Virus record (IMG/VR): IMGVR_UViG_3300008627_000025
Location: 1-37,344 of that record
Length of the DNA stretch: 37,344 nucleotides
Reading direction: 5' to 3' (one strand)
From: a virus
A program made the position numbers and the translations under genes. Position 1 is the stretch's first letter. Every line of letters begins with the position of its first letter. Shown in pieces: positions 10,332-32,356 of the stretch. Under the pieces are notes generated by a model. That model was not told the DNA's origin and searched no databases. It saw only the letters and a program-made list of their open reading frames with translations.

Positions 10332-10982
10332 CTAGTGAATTGTTTTTCCAAATTCATGTCTGTCTATCATCTTTTTTTCAGAATAAAAAGACTTGTCATG
10401 AACTAATTTTAATGATCTAACATCTCTTTTTGTTTTAGTAATATCTGATGCAATATCTCTTCCATCTATACTACTGTAAATTCTTGAATGTGCACCTATT
10501 CCCTGTTCTAAAAGATATGGTCTTTCTCTCATGTTATACAGCCTAGGTCTTCTTTGATTCATACCATAATTATCCAATACAACACTATGACAGCCAAATG
10601 AAATATCTGCCAATTCTACCTTTTCTTGATTCCATTCATGTTTATCTATATATGGAATTTCGTCTGCATCAACTATGAAAGCCCAATCAATTCCAATCTG
10701 TTCTGCTCTGAAAAACATATGATTTCTTTTTTCTGCCTCTGTCTTGTCTTCAACATATTCATAATAAACATTAACATCTGTTTTGGTGTTAGCCCAATCC
10801 TTAATTATGTTTGCAACTTCATCTTTTGGAAATTCTGGACTTCCTTCCCATTGTTTATATTTACCATCAAAGAAACAAACAAAATCATAATCAGTAATTG
10901 TAGGCTGATCCAACATTCTCATTACACCTCTTGGATCGTCCCATACAGAACATAGTAATCCTATTATGTTTAAATCATTCAA
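10332..10982 (-). CDS. GT-A fold glycosyltransferase-like protein
   Basis: A 216-aa protein. Residues 80-110 (TEAEKRNHMFFRAEQIGIDW followed by AFIVDADEIP) match the end of the nucleotide-sugar domain of family-2-like glycosyltransferases. D105 and D107 would form the metal-binding DxD motif. The N-terminus (IIGLLCSVWDDPRGVMRML) fits the first strand and loop. The start is TTG and overlaps the upstream TGA by 4 nt, so translation is probably coupled to the unknown gene at 10979. Embedded in the virion operon, it may glycosylate capsid or tail proteins, but sugar and acceptor cannot be read from sequence. Confidence 0.65.
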   Translation of the reverse strand: MNDLNIIGLLCSVWDDPRGVMRMLDQPTITDYDFVCFFDGKYKQWEGSPEFPKDEVANIIKDWANTKTDVNVYYEYVEDKTEAEKRNHMFFRAEQIGIDWAFIVDADEIPYIDKHEWNQEKVELADISFGCHSVVLDNYGMNQRRPRLYNMRERPYLLEQGIGAHSRIYSSIDGRDIASDITKTKRDVRSLKLVHDKSFYSEKKMIDRHEFGKTIH

Positions 10983-16231: not shown

Positions 16232-16540
16232 ATGGATTCTGTAAAATATGATGATGGGAAGCCTAAATTGGGTCTAATTCCTACACATGCAGCATTTGGA
16301 ATGGGAAGAGCATTAGGATATGGTGCACTAAAATATGATAATTTTAACTATAAAACAGGTACAGGTTTAGATTGGGACAGATATTATTCTGCCTTGTTAA
16401 GGCATTTGTTTGCATGGATTGGTGGAGAAAACAATGATGATGAATCTGGATTAAATCATTTAGATCATGTATTAGCATGTAGTGCAATGTTGGCAGATGC
16501 AGTATATTCTGGAATAGGGAATGACACTAGATTTAAATAA
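16232..16540 (+). CDS. dATP/dGTP diphosphohydrolase-like protein (MazG-related phage family)
   Basis: A 102-aa protein. The N-terminus (KYDDGKPKLGLIP, residues 5-17), then ALGYGALKYDNFNYKTG and LLRHLFAWIGGENNDD, followed by SGLNHLDHVLACSAML, match the small phage family annotated as dATP/dGTP diphosphohydrolase N-terminal domain. The E/D-rich helices would bind Mg and a dNTP. In Z-genome phages a related enzyme (MazZ) supplies precursors to PurZ, but I find no PurZ here. A role in adjusting nucleotide pools is inferred. It opens a three-gene plus-strand cassette between terminase and portal modules. Confidence 0.75.
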   Translation: MDSVKYDDGKPKLGLIPTHAAFGMGRALGYGALKYDNFNYKTGTGLDWDRYYSALLRHLFAWIGGENNDDESGLNHLDHVLACSAMLADAVYSGIGNDTRFK

Positions 16541-19236: not shown

Positions 19237-20028
19237 TTATTCTGAAAGAACCCTTATAAACTCACGGGCACTATTCTCATCATTATGACGTTCTGGAAAC
19301 TTGTGATACCATTTTCCACATGACCATACAGGTATTTTGCAAGCCAAAGCCTGTAGTCCTGTCTGAGACAGTTCTTCAATTAGTGTAGGTGGGTGTGTAG
19401 GTTGGAATTTTACATCATAATAATATGAATAATTACAAAGTATCTGTGGCATATTTCCATAGGTTACTTTGTTTTTTACCCTATCAACTACAAATACCCC
19501 TGTCTCATTTCCTTTTATTATGTCTAAAACATATTTCTTATATCTGTCTTGGGTTAAACAAAGTCCTATATCTTTTTTCTCAATATCCAAACTTGTAAAC
19601 AGATCCATATCTACAGGTCTGTTGAATAACTCTGCATCTGGTGCATGAACCAACAGATCCTCTGTAGTTACAAATATGTTTTCTATTGATTCCAATGACT
19701 GTATCTTTTTGTATATTTCTGGGTTCTGTCTTAACATGTTACCATGAAACATATATGAAGATTGTAAATGTAAATCGTCTGATTCTACAGCAAGTTTGAA
19801 CATGTCATGATAAACTATGTGATCGTATCCTATTTCTTCTGCTGCCTTTATTGCTAACAACATCTCATCGTGGTCATTAAAATATGTAGTATTATCATAG
19901 TATACACCGTGTTCAAACGTCTCCACGTTTTTGTCTTGTATTACTGTACTCGGGTGTCCTATTTTGGAACATATGTTACTTGTAATAGCAGCCGATCCTG
20001 CCATGTCTCCTACGTGTAGTATTTTCAT
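19237..20028 (-). CDS. GT-B fold glycosyltransferase-like protein
   Basis: A 263-aa protein. The N-terminus MKILHVGDMAGSAAITSNIC gives a Rossmann-type strand-loop. Near the C-terminus (from about 216) LIEELSQTGLQALACKIPVW matches the nucleotide-sugar site of GT4-like enzymes (E-x7-E/G-x2-ALA-x3-PV). The protein is shorter than typical GT4 enzymes (350+), so it may be a minimal form. Sugar and acceptor are unknown; acceptors could be virion proteins or modified DNA. It sits between a nuclease gene and the small terminase candidate and has a TATA box at about 20049-20058. Confidence 0.65.
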   Translation of the reverse strand: MKILHVGDMAGSAAITSNICSKIGHPSTVIQDKNVETFEHGVYYDNTTYFNDHDEMLLAIKAAEEIGYDHIVYHDMFKLAVESDDLHLQSSYMFHGNMLRQNPEIYKKIQSLESIENIFVTTEDLLVHAPDAELFNRPVDMDLFTSLDIEKKDIGLCLTQDRYKKYVLDIIKGNETGVFVVDRVKNKVTYGNMPQILCNYSYYYDVKFQPTHPPTLIEELSQTGLQALACKIPVWSCGKWYHKFPERHNDENSAREFIRVLSE

Positions 20029-21497: not shown

Positions 21498-21510
21498 TGT
21501 ATATGATTGT

Positions 21511-21528
21511 ACAAAGCCCTATATAAAT
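21511..21528 (-). promoter_or_regulatory. TATA promoter of the 129-aa gene
   Basis: On the minus strand ATTTATATAGGGCTTTGT places a TATA box about 22-30 bp before the ATG at 21497. It shares GGGCTTTG with the plus-strand promoter at about 16210, defining a second promoter class next to the palindromic one. Confidence 0.65.
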
Positions 21529-21610
21529 CTATATATTAAACGTAGTTCTTCATCGGTATAATGATACATATGTATTAAAGTATTTAATATAAGATAAAAA
21601 GTATATATGA

Positions 21611-21673
21611 TTTAGATAACTATATTTAGATATTCTTTAGATAATAATATCATTTATAGAATAAATTAGATAA
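21611..21673. repeat. AT-rich direct repeats, TTTAGATA (iteron-like)
   Basis: TTTAGATA(A/T) begins at 21611, 21625 and 21636, and ATTAGATAAT at 21665. Spacings are 14, 11 and 29 bp, about one helical turn for the first pair. Such short AT-rich direct repeats can act as initiator sites or unwinding elements; the low complexity makes chance a real alternative. Confidence 0.45.
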
Positions 21674-21690
21674 TAATTAGAGATTGTAAT

Positions 21691-21981
21691 CGCCCCCTCC
21701 ACGTTTATAGGATTCGTGAAAAAGAGGGTATATAAATGTTTCTATTAGAAAAAGAAACCCTTAAGAAAAAAATTCAAAATAATATTATTCTTTATATATA
21801 AATAATATTATTATATGTTTTTTACAATCTGAAAAGTCTCGAAAATACGATTTCTACGAAATGATCCCGATTTGTGCCTAGAATTGAAAATCACGCCTAT
21901 TTTAATGAAACAGGGATTAGGCTAAGTAAATTAATAAAAGATTTGTCGAATTACAATTTGGTATGTCAAACGTAGGGGGCG
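21691..21981. repeat. Inverted repeat with GC arms flanking an AT-rich core
   Basis: CGCCCCCTCCACGTTT (21691-21706) faces AAACGTAGGGGGCG (21968-21981). Apart from two extra bases in the left arm the arms are perfect complements over 14 bp. They enclose about 260 bp of AT-rich DNA with a hairpin. GC-rich arms are conspicuous in this A+T-rich genome and suggest a protein binding or origin structure. Confidence 0.65.
21780..21810 (-). terminator. Hairpin duplicated at 35361-35391, terminator-like on minus strand
   Basis: TAATATTATT, an 11-base loop (ctttatatata) and AATAATATTA form a perfect 10-bp stem. On the minus strand it is followed by TTTTGAATTTTTTTTC. The second copy is the same except for one loop base and is followed by TTTCAAGTTTTTTTCC, just after a gene stop. 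If this copy is also a terminator, an unannotated minus-strand transcript ends here. Confidence 0.5.
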
Positions 21982-22059
21982 GTCTCCTATATATATGTAT
22001 CGCCGAGTCGTTTTTTTAGAGAATCAACGATACGTTTATATCCTCACAATCTGGGCAAT

Positions 22060-22070
22060 CCGTACCGTAC
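22060..22070. repeat. CCGTAC tandem repeat, inverse of 26827-26848
   Basis: CCGTACCGTAC holds two overlapping CCGTAC hexamers. The other gene-free block carries three GTACGG hexamers, the reverse complement, at 26827, 26833 and 26843. The GC-rich hexamer in both intergenic blocks on either side of the plus island suggests a shared binding protein (inference). Confidence 0.45.
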
Positions 22071-22220
22071 CCTACAGTACCAGAACCGTAAAGTGCCGAC
22101 TCCAATTTCTCAGGATTTGGAAAATTAAGGGTTTATAAGTGTTATGGGTGCTTGACTACGCTTAAATACTATAGCTTAAATCAGAAAGTAATATATACTA
22201 GCCATTTTTGGACGACTATA

Positions 22221-22256
22221 TAAAGGGGTCTCCAAATTAATTATGCAACCCCTTTA
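22221..22256. repeat. Hairpin TAAAGGGGT/ACCCCTTTA
   Basis: TAAAGGGGT (22221-22229) pairs perfectly with ACCCCTTTA (22248-22256) across an 18-base loop. A second ACCCCTT follows a few bases later and could pair with the same left arm. It overlaps a TATA-like ACTATATAAAGG. It could be a promoter operator or an RNA stem. Confidence 0.5.
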
Positions 22257-22404
22257 AATACCCCTTCAAAAAATGCTGCTTAATATAGTTTTGGTAAGAG
22301 TATTTATACTTTATATACTCAAGTCTTAAGAACCTCATAGTTTATATTACGACAAATTCAGAAACAATTAGGTAATTTTTGATACCGCTGTCCTTGAACC
22401 ATAT

Positions 22405-22610
22405 AGGGCTGTAATCCTGCGAGGGATAAAATTAGAATGATTGGAATCGAGAGCCAATAAGCCACGACTTTCAGCCCTGAGTTAAGGGTTAGTGAATTTC
22501 TCTAAGTCTGCCAAATAGAGTAGTAATGGGAAGCATAACCTGAAAGTTTAGTCTCATTAAGTTTGATTATTCACTTATAGTAAATCATTGAAGACTTAGT
22601 CAATATTGAC
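22405..22610. ncRNA. Possible structured RNA or DNA element (tentative)
   Basis: Several complementary pairs lie within 200 bp: AGGGCTG (22405) with CAGCCCT (22472), enclosing ATCC/GGAT and ATTGG/CCAAT hairpins; AGTGAAT (22491) with ATTCACT (22569); CTAAGTCT (22502) with AGACTTAG (22592). The last two interleave like a pseudoknot. CAGCCCT can also pair with AGGG at 22485, giving an alternative fold. A 12-bp palindrome GTCAATATTGAC follows at 22599. Pairs of this length can arise by chance, and no RNA family is recognised. Confidence 0.25.
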
Positions 22611-22837
22611 AAAACTTCAAAACGAATAGAAATAAACTGAATTTTCCTAAAACCTAACGGACTTAGCAAAAAACAACAATAACAAATCACAATACTCTAA
22701 GCGGTAAAATCGTAATTAGATTAGTGATTCATTAAACTATCAATTAACTTCTAAAACAAAAAACATAACTGATGAGACTTATCTAAAGTCGAAATAAAAT
22801 TAATTATTATCATAAGAAATTATGATATTCATATTTT

Positions 22838-22854
22838 TTTTATCTTATGTCAAA
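22838..22854 (+). promoter_or_regulatory. Repeated start context TTTTATCTTATGTCAAA, copy 1
   Basis: This 17-mer, which includes the ATG of the 33-aa gene, recurs exactly at 22949-22965 and 23090-23106, each time at the start of a small gene. It contains no Shine-Dalgarno sequence. It may be a shared translation or RNA-processing signal, or a relic of tandem duplication. Confidence 0.7.
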
Positions 22855-22948
22855 ACCACACATAACAGATTTAGCAATACGCTATATCAAAAGATTCAAT
22901 GACAATGATATTGCATACTTGGTATATTGTCGTGAACTTTCAAACTAA
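22847..22948 (+). CDS. Small gene A, 33 aa
   Basis: MSKPHITDLAIRYIKRFND and on to YLVYCRELSN. First of seven small plus-strand genes. It opens with ATGTCAAA in the repeated start context and is separated from the next gene by the 9-base TTTTATCTT. Helical and basic; no family recognised. Evidence is the shared start context and tight spacing rather than length. Confidence 0.5.
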   Translation: MSKPHITDLAIRYIKRFNDNDIAYLVYCRELSN

Positions 22949-22957
22949 TTTTATCTT

Positions 22958-23089
22958 ATGTCAAAAAAATACACAGGAAAAAAATGTCATAAATGCAATT
23001 TTAAAATAATTGTAAATGAAGAATATAAACACCAATTTTGCCACTTTTCAGAAGTACAAAAAGAATTTGGTGATTCAGCATTTTTCTAA
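22958..23089 (+). CDS. Small gene B, 43-aa zinc-knuckle-like protein
   Basis: MSKKYTGKKCHKCNFK, with C10 and C13, followed by HQFCHF (H25, C28, H29). C-x2-C and C-H pairs would make a compact zinc site. It begins 9 bases after the stop of gene A with the exact TTTTATCTTATGTCAAA context. Likely a nucleic-acid-binding or regulatory miniprotein. Confidence 0.6.
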   Translation: MSKKYTGKKCHKCNFKIIVNEEYKHQFCHFSEVQKEFGDSAFF

Positions 23090-23098
23090 TTTTATCTT

Positions 23099-23197
23099 AT
23101 GTCAAACATAAACCAAAATCAAGAATCACATATAGCACAATTTTTTCAAAAACAATACGCTATGATTCAAACAAAAAGGAATGATAATATTGAATGA
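23099..23197 (+). CDS. Small gene C, 32 aa
   Basis: MSNINQNQESHIAQFFQKQY and a short charged end. Third gene with the identical start context, again 9 bases after the preceding stop. Gln/Asn-rich, helical. Function unknown. Confidence 0.5.
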   Translation: MSNINQNQESHIAQFFQKQYAMIQTKRNDNIE

Positions 23198-23736: not shown

Positions 23737-23758
23737 GTTAACCCTTTTTTTCATAGAC

Positions 23759-24226
23759 ATGGAAACAATACAAAAATTTCAATCTGTAACAGATGAAATA
23801 AACGATATTGACTTGGTGACATTACAAATCAAACGTACTGTTAAAGGTACACGGGTCTATATCAAGTCTAAAATCTTTGAAGACTTTTTTTCAACCTTTG
23901 GAGATTCTGGAGAGCAATTTAGAGACGCAGACGATAACATTAGAGAATTATACAAAATGCCAAACATGGAACGAGTCGCGACGTATTACATGTTGAGAGA
24001 GCCTTATGTTAATACTCTCATAGGTTCTGAAAATTATACAAACATGGCATTCCTACGAAGTAAGCAACTTTCAAAAGGAATCTGTTTTAAAATCGACGGG
24101 CTACAAAGCAAATCATCAATTAAGAAATTTTCAAAGAATTTCAAAGCAAACGCTATTGATATCTACAACGAATATCTAAAAGACGAAAAACGAGAAGTAG
24201 AAATAAAAATCAGGGAGTCCAAATAA
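23759..24226 (+). CDS. Unknown protein coupled to amidoligase, 155 aa
   Basis: An alpha/beta protein (TLQIKRTVKGTRVYIKSKIF; MERVATYYMLREPYVNTLIG; basic C-terminus EKREVEIKIRESK). No family recognised. Its TAA is immediately followed by the ATG of the amidoligase gene, whose ribosome site (GGGAG) lies inside this gene, so the two are surely co-expressed. It could be a substrate, adaptor or third enzyme of the amide-forming module. No metal or catalytic motif is clear. Confidence 0.65.
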   Translation: METIQKFQSVTDEINDIDLVTLQIKRTVKGTRVYIKSKIFEDFFSTFGDSGEQFRDADDNIRELYKMPNMERVATYYMLREPYVNTLIGSENYTNMAFLRSKQLSKGICFKIDGLQSKSSIKKFSKNFKANAIDIYNEYLKDEKREVEIKIRESK

Positions 24227-25012
24227 ATGACTAATCTATTACCACCATTTCAAGAAGAACTGTATAAGGAATATCCATTTTATGTAAAATATTTCGGGTA
24301 TGAAATCGAAGGCGGCTTTGAATATGATTATTCAGACACTTATTGCGAAGAATGTGATTCATCTGTTTGTGGCTGTGTAGAATCTGAAAACCAATATTTC
24401 AAGCATGACGGTTCGGTAGAAACAGAAGATTATACCGCAGGCGAAATTGCAAGCCCAAAATTTAGAGTTGACAGAATGCCACAATTTGAACAATTTGTAA
24501 AAGAGAATATGCCGCAAGAAGTTAATAACACATGTGGACTTCACGTTCACTTATCATTTAACAACCAACTTGCATATGAGAAAACTATGGACTTGGAATT
24601 TTTTACAGAATTCAAAGTTAAGGTTAAGGAATTTGTTTTGAATTCGGGACTTTTTACCGAACATACGCAAGAAGAATTTGTTAAAAGATTTAGGGGTAAT
24701 AACACGTATTGTAGGGACATATTTTCACCAAATTCTCAAGCAACAGGAAAAAATGTTTATGACGAAACAACCGAACAAGGAAGATATACTTTCATAAATT
24801 ATCCATATAACCAACATGGGACGATTGAATGTCGATTATTTCCAAGTACAGTTTCTAGTTCAGAAGTATGTAGTTTTGTAAAATGGTTTATTGACTTTAC
24901 AAATACTTACTTGAAAAACCAACCAAAATATGAACGCGGTAATTACCAAAATACTAAAATCAAAAACGTTCAATCAATCAATGAAAAGGAGTCTGTTATT
25001 ATATGTGTGTGA
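24227..25012 (+). CDS. Amidoligase-family enzyme (GS-like carboxylate-amine ligase)
   Basis: A 261-aa protein. FGYEIEGGFEYD (E26, E28), FKHDGSVETED (D61), GEIASPKF (72-79), CGLHVHLSF (103-111) and NYPYNQHGTIECRLF (191-205; E201, R203) are the ordered motifs of the amidoligase (COOH-NH2 ligase) family, related to glutamine synthetase. The enzyme would use ATP to join a carboxylate to an amine. A small Cys insert (CEEC 40-43, CGC 48-50) could bind zinc. The next gene, overlapping by 10 nt, encodes a class II glutamine amidotransferase that could supply ammonia. Substrate unknown. Confidence 0.85.
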   Translation: MTNLLPPFQEELYKEYPFYVKYFGYEIEGGFEYDYSDTYCEECDSSVCGCVESENQYFKHDGSVETEDYTAGEIASPKFRVDRMPQFEQFVKENMPQEVNNTCGLHVHLSFNNQLAYEKTMDLEFFTEFKVKVKEFVLNSGLFTEHTQEEFVKRFRGNNTYCRDIFSPNSQATGKNVYDETTEQGRYTFINYPYNQHGTIECRLFPSTVSSSEVCSFVKWFIDFTNTYLKNQPKYERGNYQNTKIKNVQSINEKESVIICV

Positions 25013-26109
25013 TTCTTGCATGTGAAGATAAATTTCCTACTTCTGAATTATTAAAATCATGTGAAGTCACAAATCCGCATGGAGCTGGAATTGCATGGAA
25101 CGATTCAAATGGAAATCAACATTATAGAAAAGGAATTGATTCAGACGAAATAATTTCAATGATTGAATCGGGATTAGTTAAATTACCTTGCATAGTTCAT
25201 TTTAGGATTGCAAGTGTTGGGACTAGTGACGGTCTTGAAGGTAAAAAACTATGTCACCCATTCCCAATTAATGACAAAGTCGAATTAGACTTGCAAGGTC
25301 ATATTGCATCAGATAAAGACGGTTTACTATTCCATAACGGGACAGTTTCAAATTATGAAGATATTGTAAAAGAAACTGTATTATCATCAGGTAAACGAAT
25401 GTTAAAAGGCGTTATTTCAGATTCTCGAATAATGGCTTTTAGTGCTGCACAATATGGTCACGAATTCATACCTTACTTGGATTCTGATACTTGGAATAAA
25501 TACGCAATCTTAGATAAAGACGGCATTCACAAATACGGAAATTGGCATGAAGACGAAGGCGTGCAGGCTTCAAATCAATATTACAAAATGAATTCAAATA
25601 ATGGGTACATTTACGGATTAAGTAATGATTTTGACGAATGGGACGAATCTGGAATAGATAATGTTGGACGTAAAGACGCTTTTGACGAATTTAATGATGA
25701 AGATTCATTTAATACAGTTAAAGGCGAATGGATTAAACAAAAAAACGGTTCTTGGAAATATATTAAATCTGAATTCAAAGAAACATGGACAGAAGAAAAA
25801 CAAAAAGACGTTAAAGAGTTAAACGACTTTTTTGGACTCTCAGACAAAATAAAATATCCATCTAAAAAGAAATTGAAAAAAGAACGTAATGCAAATATTC
25901 AATATTTGTTAAATCATAATTGGGTTAACCCCCAAAGATTAGACAATAAAGCCTTGTATTATTGGGTTCATGTCTTACAAACAAACAAGAAAACATTAAC
26001 CAAAGACAAAATACAAAAAACACTTAATCAACGTGAAAAGATGAACGCAGACGACTATGTAGACTTGTTTAAACAGAATGAGGAATGGATTGAAAAATTC
26101 AAATCTTAA
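25003..26109 (+). CDS. Class II glutamine amidotransferase-like protein (Ntn hydrolase)
   Basis: A 368-aa protein. C2 directly after Met is the nucleophile expected of GATase II. NPHGAGIAW (24-32), HFRIAS (66-71, R68 for substrate), CHPFP (84-88), HNGTVSNY (111-118, N112/G113 oxyanion) and SDSR (139-142, D140) complete the active site. The C-terminal part (about 220-368) is charged and unrelated to known synthetase domains (EGTs such as KKKLKKERNANIQ), perhaps a docking region. It overlaps the amidoligase gene and has AAGGAG upstream. It likely hydrolyses glutamine and passes ammonia to the amidoligase. Confidence 0.82.
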   Translation: MCVILACEDKFPTSELLKSCEVTNPHGAGIAWNDSNGNQHYRKGIDSDEIISMIESGLVKLPCIVHFRIASVGTSDGLEGKKLCHPFPINDKVELDLQGHIASDKDGLLFHNGTVSNYEDIVKETVLSSGKRMLKGVISDSRIMAFSAAQYGHEFIPYLDSDTWNKYAILDKDGIHKYGNWHEDEGVQASNQYYKMNSNNGYIYGLSNDFDEWDESGIDNVGRKDAFDEFNDEDSFNTVKGEWIKQKNGSWKYIKSEFKETWTEEKQKDVKELNDFFGLSDKIKYPSKKKLKKERNANIQYLLNHNWVNPQRLDNKALYYWVHVLQTNKKTLTKDKIQKTLNQREKMNADDYVDLFKQNEEWIEKFKS

Positions 26110-26126
26110 TTTTTTTTCATGTACAA

Positions 26127-26808: not shown

Positions 26809-26898
26809 AAAGTATGAACTTCATAGGTACGGGTACGGTAAAGTACGGTACAAATCCTCATACTTTCACATTTGCATAAATTCTTAAATTCATACTTT
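26809..26898. repeat. AAAGTATGA iteron-like cluster with GTACGG hexamers
   Basis: AAAGTATGAACTTCATA (26809-26825) is followed by GGTACGGGTACGGTAAAGTACGGTAC, which lies across 26826-26851 and contains GTACGG at 26827, 26833 and 26843. TCATACTTT at 26858 and 26890 faces back toward it. The mix of direct and inverted copies looks like a protein-binding array such as an origin or operator. Confidence 0.55.
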
Positions 26899-30635: not shown

Positions 30636-30877
30636 TTCTTATCCTCTTTGAGTTGTTTGATTTCCTCTTGAAGTATATTTCTATCTCTAACAGTTAAATC
30701 CCATTCTCTCTTATAGTGTTTGTTTTGTTGTTCTAGTTCTTTGATTTTATATCCATGTGGTTCAGGGTACATCATCTGTTCTATCTGACTCTTTAGGGAA
30801 TTGTATTCTTCATGATTTTCATCATCATCAAATAATGCTTGAGGATATAACTCTAATAATCGGTCTAGGAGAGTCAT
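30632..30877 (-). CDS. Small coiled-coil protein, 81 aa
   Basis: Starts MTLLDRLLELYPQALFDDDE. Residues 35-81 are a coiled coil (KIKELEQQNKHYKREWDLTV). The start at 30877 overlaps the previous TGA as ATGA; a start 15 bases earlier is possible but overlaps more. Likely an oligomeric adaptor; function unknown. Confidence 0.55.
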   Translation of the reverse strand: MTLLDRLLELYPQALFDDDENHEEYNSLKSQIEQMMYPEPHGYKIKELEQQNKHYKREWDLTVRDRNILQEEIKQLKEDKK

Positions 30878-31155
30878 TCCAAATACACCCAATGATCATC
30901 TACTTTAACTCTACGATATAATCCAAATGAAACACCTTCAACACGATCCATTTTTGCTAACTGTATATCATCTACCTCTAACATCATACCAGAAACCATA
31001 GTGTCAGGATTTTCATAGACAGTAGCAAAGCCACATTTACTATGAGTTCTAATGTTATAACCGTCCAGAGTATGTTCCCAACAAGGCACGTCTCCTATTG
31101 TATGTAGTCTGGTGTCTTCATTTGTAAAGATACCATAAACAAAAACCTTATTCAT
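30874..31155 (-). CDS. Gamma-glutamylcyclotransferase/AIG2-like protein
   Basis: A 93-aa protein. MNKVFVYGIFTN (V-Y-G at 6-8) and MDRVEGVSFGLYRRVKV (E73 as catalytic acid) match the GGCT fold, whose members open gamma-glutamyl amide bonds to 5-oxoproline. Shorter than typical GGCT (about 110-180), but both key motifs are present. In bacterial and viral genomes such proteins often accompany amidoligase genes; here an amidoligase lies 5-6 kb away on the other strand. Reversal or trimming of an amide product is a hypothesis. Confidence 0.7.
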   Translation of the reverse strand: MNKVFVYGIFTNEDTRLHTIGDVPCWEHTLDGYNIRTHSKCGFATVYENPDTMVSGMMLEVDDIQLAKMDRVEGVSFGLYRRVKVDDHWVYLE

Positions 31156-31774: not shown

Positions 31775-32356
31775 TTAAGGTCGTATCCTCTTTATAAACC
31801 TTACTTTTGGTTTCTCTGTTACCTTTCTAAGATTGTTCTTCATAGCATAATCCAATTCTGTAATCCCCAATTTTTTAGCAGCGTCCCAAGGTAGTCTCTT
31901 GTTTATACGATTGCCCTGCATATCTATGTAATGATATTTCTTTGCTGTATATCCATGTAGTTCCCAACTGCCTGCCTTATATACTGTACCATCATGTCCT
32001 TCTGTCTGATCTGCATATGTTACTAACATCTTAACTTTAGGAAATTTCTGTCTCAGTATCTTAATAGATCTACTCATGAAATATGTTCTATTAACAGGTT
32101 CATCATCTAGTACAACCATTCTAAGAAATTCAAAACAAGTCTGTTCTGTATGACCTAAAGATTTAGCTACTAGTCTGCCACTAGGCTGTCCAAAGGTTAT
32201 GACTCCTACAAGTTTATCTTTACGCCACATACCTGTAATCAGGCTAGCCTTGCCAAATGCTCTAGTGTAATGATTATTAATAACAAATGGTTTTGCTATA
32301 TCTCTACTAATTACGTTAACTAAACATTCGCCCAACAAGGTTTCTCTCCACCACAA
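31775..32356 (-). CDS. Mom-like DNA modification protein (GNAT fold)
   Basis: A protein of up to 193 aa. PFVINNHYTRAFGKASLI, WRKDKLVGVITFGQPSG, FEFLRMVVLDDEPVNRTYFM, LVTYADQTEGHDGTVYKAGS and WELHGYT follow the order of the phage Mom family, GNAT-like proteins. In phage Mu, Mom converts adenine to a carbamoylmethyl form that blocks restriction. Here it would protect viral DNA from host restriction (inference). The start is uncertain: TTG at 32356 overlaps the Cys-rich gene by 37 nt; TTGs at 32338 and 32335 are alternatives. No ATG is near. It is the best evidence for hypermodified DNA in this virus. Confidence 0.82.
   Translation of the reverse strand: MWWRETLLGECLVNVISRDIAKPFVINNHYTRAFGKASLITGMWRKDKLVGVITFGQPSGRLVAKSLGHTEQTCFEFLRMVVLDDEPVNRTYFMSRSIKILRQKFPKVKMLVTYADQTEGHDGTVYKAGSWELHGYTAKKYHYIDMQGNRINKRLPWDAAKKLGITELDYAMKNNLRKVTEKPKVRFIKRIRP

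Follow-up and report, generated by a model that had tools for sequence, protein, structure and literature searches.

A three-gene amidoligase and glutamine amidotransferase cassette, including a new small protein family, in a tailed virus of a probable Nitrososphaeria host

Our study identified, in the genome of a tailed virus whose host was probably an ammonia-oxidising archaeon, a cassette of three adjoining genes in which a glutamine synthetase (GS)-like amidoligase and a class II glutamine amidotransferase (GATase) are preceded by a 155-aa protein, here called U. The pairing of these two enzymes is a known phage module, often found with a gamma-glutamyl cyclotransferase (GGCT), and its presence in viruses of the Nitrososphaeria type is apparently unreported: a search of the open-access literature found no paper naming an amidoligase in a thaumarchaeal virus. 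This virus setting and the U family are what is new here, and the apparent fusion of U to the amidoligase in sister viruses is the strongest new element. We lean towards a reading in which the cassette would be a two-enzyme amide-forming system with U as its accessory recognition subunit, the GATase passing ammonia to the ligase for use on a substrate other than peptidoglycan. In what follows, the window means the whole stretch of DNA analysed (37,344 nt), and its relevant features are these:

16232-16540, plus strand: N-terminal domain of a dATP/dGTP diphosphohydrolase (PF18909, E 9e-25)
23745-23751, plus strand: run of seven T just 5' of the cassette, a weak candidate for an archaeal terminator or boundary
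23759-24226, plus strand: U, 155-aa protein (open reading frame, with a homologue in sister virus G010 and matches to the amidoligase C-terminus in sisters G013 and G015)
24227-25012, plus strand: GS-like amidoligase (Amidoligase_2), 261 aa (PF12224, motifs, structural model)
25003-26109, plus strand: class II glutamine amidotransferase, 368 aa, predicted from phage GATase matches, family profile and motifs
26110-26117, plus strand: run of eight T right after the GATase stop codon, a weak candidate for an archaeal terminator
30874-31155, minus strand: GGCT-like protein (GGACT/AIG2), 93 aa (PF06094)
31775-32356, minus strand: Mom-family DNA-modification protein (PF25680, E 8e-31)

The two ends of the window share an exact 119-bp repeat, and because of this end repeat the genome was taken as complete, at ~37.2 kb. 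Among its genes are those for an MCM helicase and an archaeal Hjc resolvase, and its TerL shares 35% identity with the TerL of Pro-Nvie1, a provirus of Nitrososphaera viennensis. Counting TerL, five virion genes are collinear with their Pro-Nvie1 counterparts, the other four encoding the capsid-protease, major tail, tape-measure and baseplate proteins. The earlier note on this DNA, made from the sequence alone, had called it an archaeal virus, a description that these genes support; the MCM, the Hjc and the matches to Pro-Nvie1 together point to a Nitrososphaeria ammonia-oxidising archaeon as the probable host. A scan of viral contigs with TerL returned 23 contigs (TerL 79-100% shared) that make up the virus family. 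The window virus belongs to this family of marine tailed viruses, and its low GC and its relatives suggest that it is itself of marine origin. Two other conserved proteins, at 10332-10982 and 19237-20028 (both on the minus strand), lie within or adjoin the virion gene block, the first of them having a weak match to glycosyltransferase family 2 (E 0.0084, below the cut-off). An Rfam search of the window gave no match.

The three open reading frames of the cassette lie exactly at the positions first given for them, all on the plus strand. The stop codon of the 155-aa gene directly abuts the ATG of the amidoligase, in agreement with its description as a gene translated just before it, and the reported 10-nt overlap between the amidoligase and GATase genes is present at 25003-25012. 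Since sister virus G010 keeps homologues of all three in the same order (28%, 44% and 32% identity), we regard the three genes as real. The 10-nt overlap is also found in G010 and, identically, in phage MEP402, and G013 has a 1-nt overlap. Three of the 23 sister contigs (G010, G013 and G015) carry the amidoligase, most of the others being fragments that end short of the cassette locus. The genome of G013 is complete (99-bp end repeat), and G015 is a fragment. Both encode an amidoligase, of 450 aa in G013 and 399 aa as called in G015, together with a 277-aa GATase, and neither has a gene for a free-standing 155-aa protein. Scans of viral contigs with single U, amidoligase or GATase sequences found no relatives, and the broad alignments were too variable to serve as queries. 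The run of seven T before the cassette is one of 21 runs of at least seven T on the plus strand.

The 261-aa protein is an Amidoligase_2 enzyme on the glutamine synthetase/YbdK fold. Its Pfam match to PF12224 (33.9 bits, E 3.9e-8) clears the cut-off of 22, and the G010 homologue scores 32.4. All five motifs expected of it (FGYEIE, DGSV, GEIASP, CGLHVH and GTIECR) are present in sequence order, and none of 20,000 shuffled versions of this protein matched a regular expression for this order, which was composed after the motifs had been seen. An 11-sequence alignment has G24, E26, E28, S63, E73, G104, H106, N191, E201 and R203 as invariant positions, which cover the amidoligase motifs GxExE, DGS, GE, GxHxH, N and ExR. 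From the same alignment, AlphaFold gave a model with pTM 0.72 and mean pLDDT 66. Foldseek against the PDB alone was weak and suggestive (YbdK, E 0.029); a second structural comparison matched the model mainly to glutamine synthetases (Z up to 10.4), to YbdK (Z 9.7) and to gamma-glutamylcysteine ligase and PafA, with Z of 8-10.4 overall, and in a viral structure library nearly all the named matches are amidoligases, with E down to 2.7e-6. The structural match on which the earlier note had staked this assignment was thus found both in the glutamine synthetase/YbdK fold and among viral amidoligases. The model shares fold and active-site motifs with the glutamine synthetase, YbdK and gamma-glutamylcysteine ligase superfamily, from which the protein differs in sequence (8-17% identity). 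Cysteine-bearing segments were also observed: the G013 amidoligase (L043:13533-14885) has a Cys-rich, zinc-finger-like insert of ~100 aa between the DGS and GE motifs, and the window protein has a short CEEC...CGC stretch between GYEIE and DGS.

The 368-aa protein is, judging by its sequence, a class II (Ntn) glutamine amidotransferase. Its C2, HFRIAS, HNG and SDSR motifs are all intact, as had been read from the translation, and the key residues are C2, R68, N112-G113 and S139-D140. As a single sequence it scores 14.3 bits with Pfam GATase_6, under the cut-off of 27; its matches to phage GATases are at E ~1e-12, and the family profile finds the GlmS glutaminase 1xff with E 1.1e-5. The HPF motif is lost in the G013 GATase. 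In the tree, the four archaeal-virus GATases cluster, with a single origin in 85% of the bootstrap trees and a branch support of 84/78 that is not decisive, and their group adjoins GATases of uncultivated phages and of a Verrucomicrobia contig. The protein also has a C-terminal extension of ~150 aa without an assigned role, for which we discarded two matches below the cut-off, one to a Tc5 helix-turn-helix, which was not reproduced in G010, and one to HMG-CoA synthase.

Amidoligase/GATase modules are widespread in phages, and the pairing that the earlier note recognised recurs well beyond the window. We examined ~22 GATase loci and found an amidoligase just upstream in all except one, the partial BP742P1 record (L007), where no amidoligase was detected; this supports a functional pairing of the two enzymes. 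The pair is present in Marvin (gp105/106), MEP401/402 (gp06/07), Arthrobacter phage Ottawa (65/66), Kovu (96-98), C75C1, a Christensenellales phage and Bifidobacterium phage BA720P3, as well as in L061, in Verrucomicrobia contigs and in five viral contigs (L054-L058) that were not part of the seed set, so that it spans viruses of very different hosts. The named phage pairs share with the window an Amidoligase_2 followed by a short class II GATase of the type 'MC[VIL]I...NP[DH]G'; they differ from it in having bacterial hosts, in their sequences (~15-30% identity) and in that no U protein or domain was found in them. Two phages, GR1 and Taranis, have amidoligases without a nearby GATase, which indicates that an amidoligase does not always need GATase-derived ammonia. 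In the Verrucomicrobiales contig L013 (4950-5972) the amidoligase adjoining the GATase is broken into two open reading frames, and the copy in L058 is longer.

Class II GATases have also been reported in the haloarchaeal viruses PhiCh1 and ChaoS9 (PMC8651126). Directly upstream of the GATase, both viruses (loci L071:1216-2863 in PhiCh1 and L070:1216-2869 in ChaoS9) encode an uncharacterised protein of 355-357 aa with ordered amidoligase motifs (GMExE, DxS, GSHVH, N and TIELR), an order also matched by 8 of 20,000 shuffles. This protein has no Pfam match, and because its hhalign comparison with Amidoligase_2 was not significant we treat it as a motif-level lead only. These are archaeal tailed viruses with a GATase downstream of an amidoligase-motif protein, as in the window; they differ from it in belonging to another virus lineage and in lacking U. 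Should the lead hold, two unrelated lineages of archaeal viruses would have the pair. An older PhiCh1 record shows the amidoligase-motif protein in two pieces, ORF41 and ORF42.

As a rule, the ammonia set free by a class II GATase is used by a partner synthase. In the amide-forming system that we favour, removal of the initial Met would expose C2 of the GATase, which would hydrolyse glutamine and release ammonia; the amidoligase would activate a carboxylate of the substrate with ATP and join it to this ammonia to give an amide, an amine other than ammonia being a less likely co-substrate. U would bind the amidoligase and present or select the substrate, and in G013 and G015 apparently the same domain would do so from within the ligase chain. 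The gene pairing and the fusion are what point to the ammonia transfer and to this role of U. The substrate may be a protein side chain, of the host or of the virus, or a small metabolite, rather than peptidoglycan, and the virus would probably benefit from an altered host surface or metabolism during infection. The GGCT may cleave gamma-glutamyl products or by-products of the reaction.

This last protein, proposed from the outset to be GGCT-like, matches PF06094 with 34.9 bits against a cut-off of 22.8 (E 2.6e-8) and keeps the catalytic Glu, its MDRVEG aligning with the LDxLEG of phage GGCTs (the 'DxxEG' motif). A functional tie between GGCT and the cassette had been suggested as well, and this stands in part. 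It is real in other genomes, where GGCT is fused to the GATase (C75C1, L010 and L011) or adjacent to the pair (Kovu); in the window, by contrast, the GGCT gene lies 5 kb from the cassette on the opposite strand. Many sister contigs have GGCT homologues upstream of terL on the main-operon strand, and in GR1 a GGCT adjoins the amidoligase without a GATase. None was found in the complete G013 genome and, since that genome carries the pair, we consider GGCT a frequent but optional partner, possibly one that cleaves the product of the cassette. Enzymes of the GGCT/GGACT families cleave gamma-glutamyl amines. This chemistry, the GATase fusions and the Kovu arrangement, together with YbdK and gamma-glutamyl ligases among the fold matches of the amidoligase, would also suit a protect-and-release scheme in which the amidoligase adds an amino acid or amine (glutamyl, polyamine), the GATase-like protein is a deamidase or gamma-glutamyl transferase, and GGCT removes the gamma-glutamyl group. 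We think this scheme unlikely, although it deserves attention, given that G013 has the amidoligase and GATase without GGCT and that the usual role of class II GATases is to feed ammonia to a partner.

The 155-aa window protein is the founding member of a new small protein family. As the earlier note had supposed in calling it undescribed, it has no match in Pfam, NCBIfam or the named phages, and tblastn of U and of the amidoligase against named phages found nothing. Its homologue in G010 (28-29% identity, E 2e-12) occurs there together with that of the GATase, a co-occurrence on which the note had made its proposal depend. The C-terminal ~115 aa of the G013 and G015 amidoligases match the U family (hhalign P 1.9e-5, probability 78%), and these two proteins were the top non-self matches of U among 6,335 open reading frames (E 0.004 and 0.048); single-pair scores between U and these C-termini are weak (z 3.5-4.8). 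D18, K25, G30, K36, S37, F40, E41 and F44, and further on N95, F98, L99, G107 and G114, are invariant in the family and its fused copies, with the motifs 'KS..FE..F' and 'N..FL......G...I.G' kept in G013 and G015. These comparisons strongly suggest that the U domain forms a subunit of its own in the window and in G010 and is fused to the amidoligase in G013 and G015, and because of this match we regard U as an amidoligase-associated domain. An AlphaFold model of U from four sequences was too poor to use (pLDDT 50, pTM 0.37). Two PHROG matches (E 0.017 and 0.051) were set aside as chance, since the homologues do not reproduce them.

U had been put forward as either the substrate or an adaptor of the enzymes. 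Its gene lies immediately upstream and is apparently co-translated, and the fold matches of the amidoligase include the Pup ligase PafA (Z 8.9), so U might be imagined as a RiPP- or Pup-like precursor that is itself amidated. This is improbable in our judgement: apparently the same domain sits within the amidoligase chain of G013 and G015, and the protein is 155 aa long with conserved internal residues and a C-terminal tail that is not conserved. The adaptor half of the suggestion fits, and a subunit that recognises the substrate is a likelier role for U than that of the substrate itself.

The presence of a Mom-family protein in the same genome raises the idea that the cassette serves DNA modification, for example by supplying the amide for this enzyme. 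No Mom homologue was found in any sister contig searched, including the pair-bearing G013 (stretches 8000-37283), and for this reason we rejected the link as a general explanation and consider it very improbable. The diphosphohydrolase-domain gene at 16232-16540 is 72-75% conserved in the sisters examined; in some phages dATP/dGTP diphosphohydrolases accompany altered-base genomes. Other observations concern the DNA around the cassette. Three short plus-strand genes at 22832-23110 have near-identical starts, TTTTATCTTATGTCAAA, spaced by 111 and 141 nt, which suggests a repeated gene-start signal or a recent duplication of small genes. Before them, ~1.3 kb (21500-22830) is rich in inverted repeats, with convincing genes absent, and a GTACCGTACC-type motif at 22062 has a second, inverted copy at 26826; this region and the 26826 motif, one on either side of the cassette, may possibly serve replication or regulation.

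To our knowledge, Nitrososphaeria make no peptidoglycan, and archaea lack the bacterial cell wall. Among the closest described systems are the cassettes of LUZ24, phiEco32 and RIO-1-type phages, which comprise a COOH-NH2 ligase, an amidoligase, a GATase, an ATP-grasp protein and a GGCT and were treated by Iyer et al. 2009 (cited in PMC10580990). The likeness to the window lies in the amidoligase, GATase and GGCT families and in a protein of unknown function encoded just before the amidoligase; the window differs in its probable archaeal host and in lacking the ATP-grasp protein and COOH-NH2 ligase, for which profiles built from UFV-P2 and phiEco32 members had no significant match in the window, in G010 or in G013. 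No relation was detected between U and the uncharacterised genes that precede the amidoligase in UFV-P2 and phiEco32 (hhalign P 0.23). Such a phage cassette has been called a peptidoglycan modification cassette acting against superinfection (PMC5498523), and the peptidoglycan reading has also been published in PMC10580990 and PMC11318856; shared enzyme families speak for extending it to the window, but a host that is probably an archaeon without a bacterial cell wall, and the two missing members, leave this role scarcely tenable here. The earlier note had not raised this consequence of an archaeal host.

In the papers that we found, no tested substrate of amidoligase/GATase modules is named, and peptidoglycan is the current guess. 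That one archaeal virus family has the module in two architectures, as three separate genes or as a ligase with an apparently fused U-like domain, argues against this guess as a general rule. The set is compact (~800 aa over three genes), and its natural fusion points to a substrate-recognition subunit. We tentatively propose, as a possibility somewhat short of the probable, that tailed viruses of ammonia-oxidising archaea may amidate a non-peptidoglycan target, such as the S-layer, a protein of translation or replication, or a metabolite, by means of a GATase-fed ligase whose specificity would come from U, separate or fused. If this is true, the general role of the module in viruses would be something other than cell-wall modification. 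Nitrososphaeria, which subsist on ammonia, belong to the most abundant microbes of the sea, and a viral enzyme pair that would move glutamine nitrogen within such cells is therefore of ecological interest.
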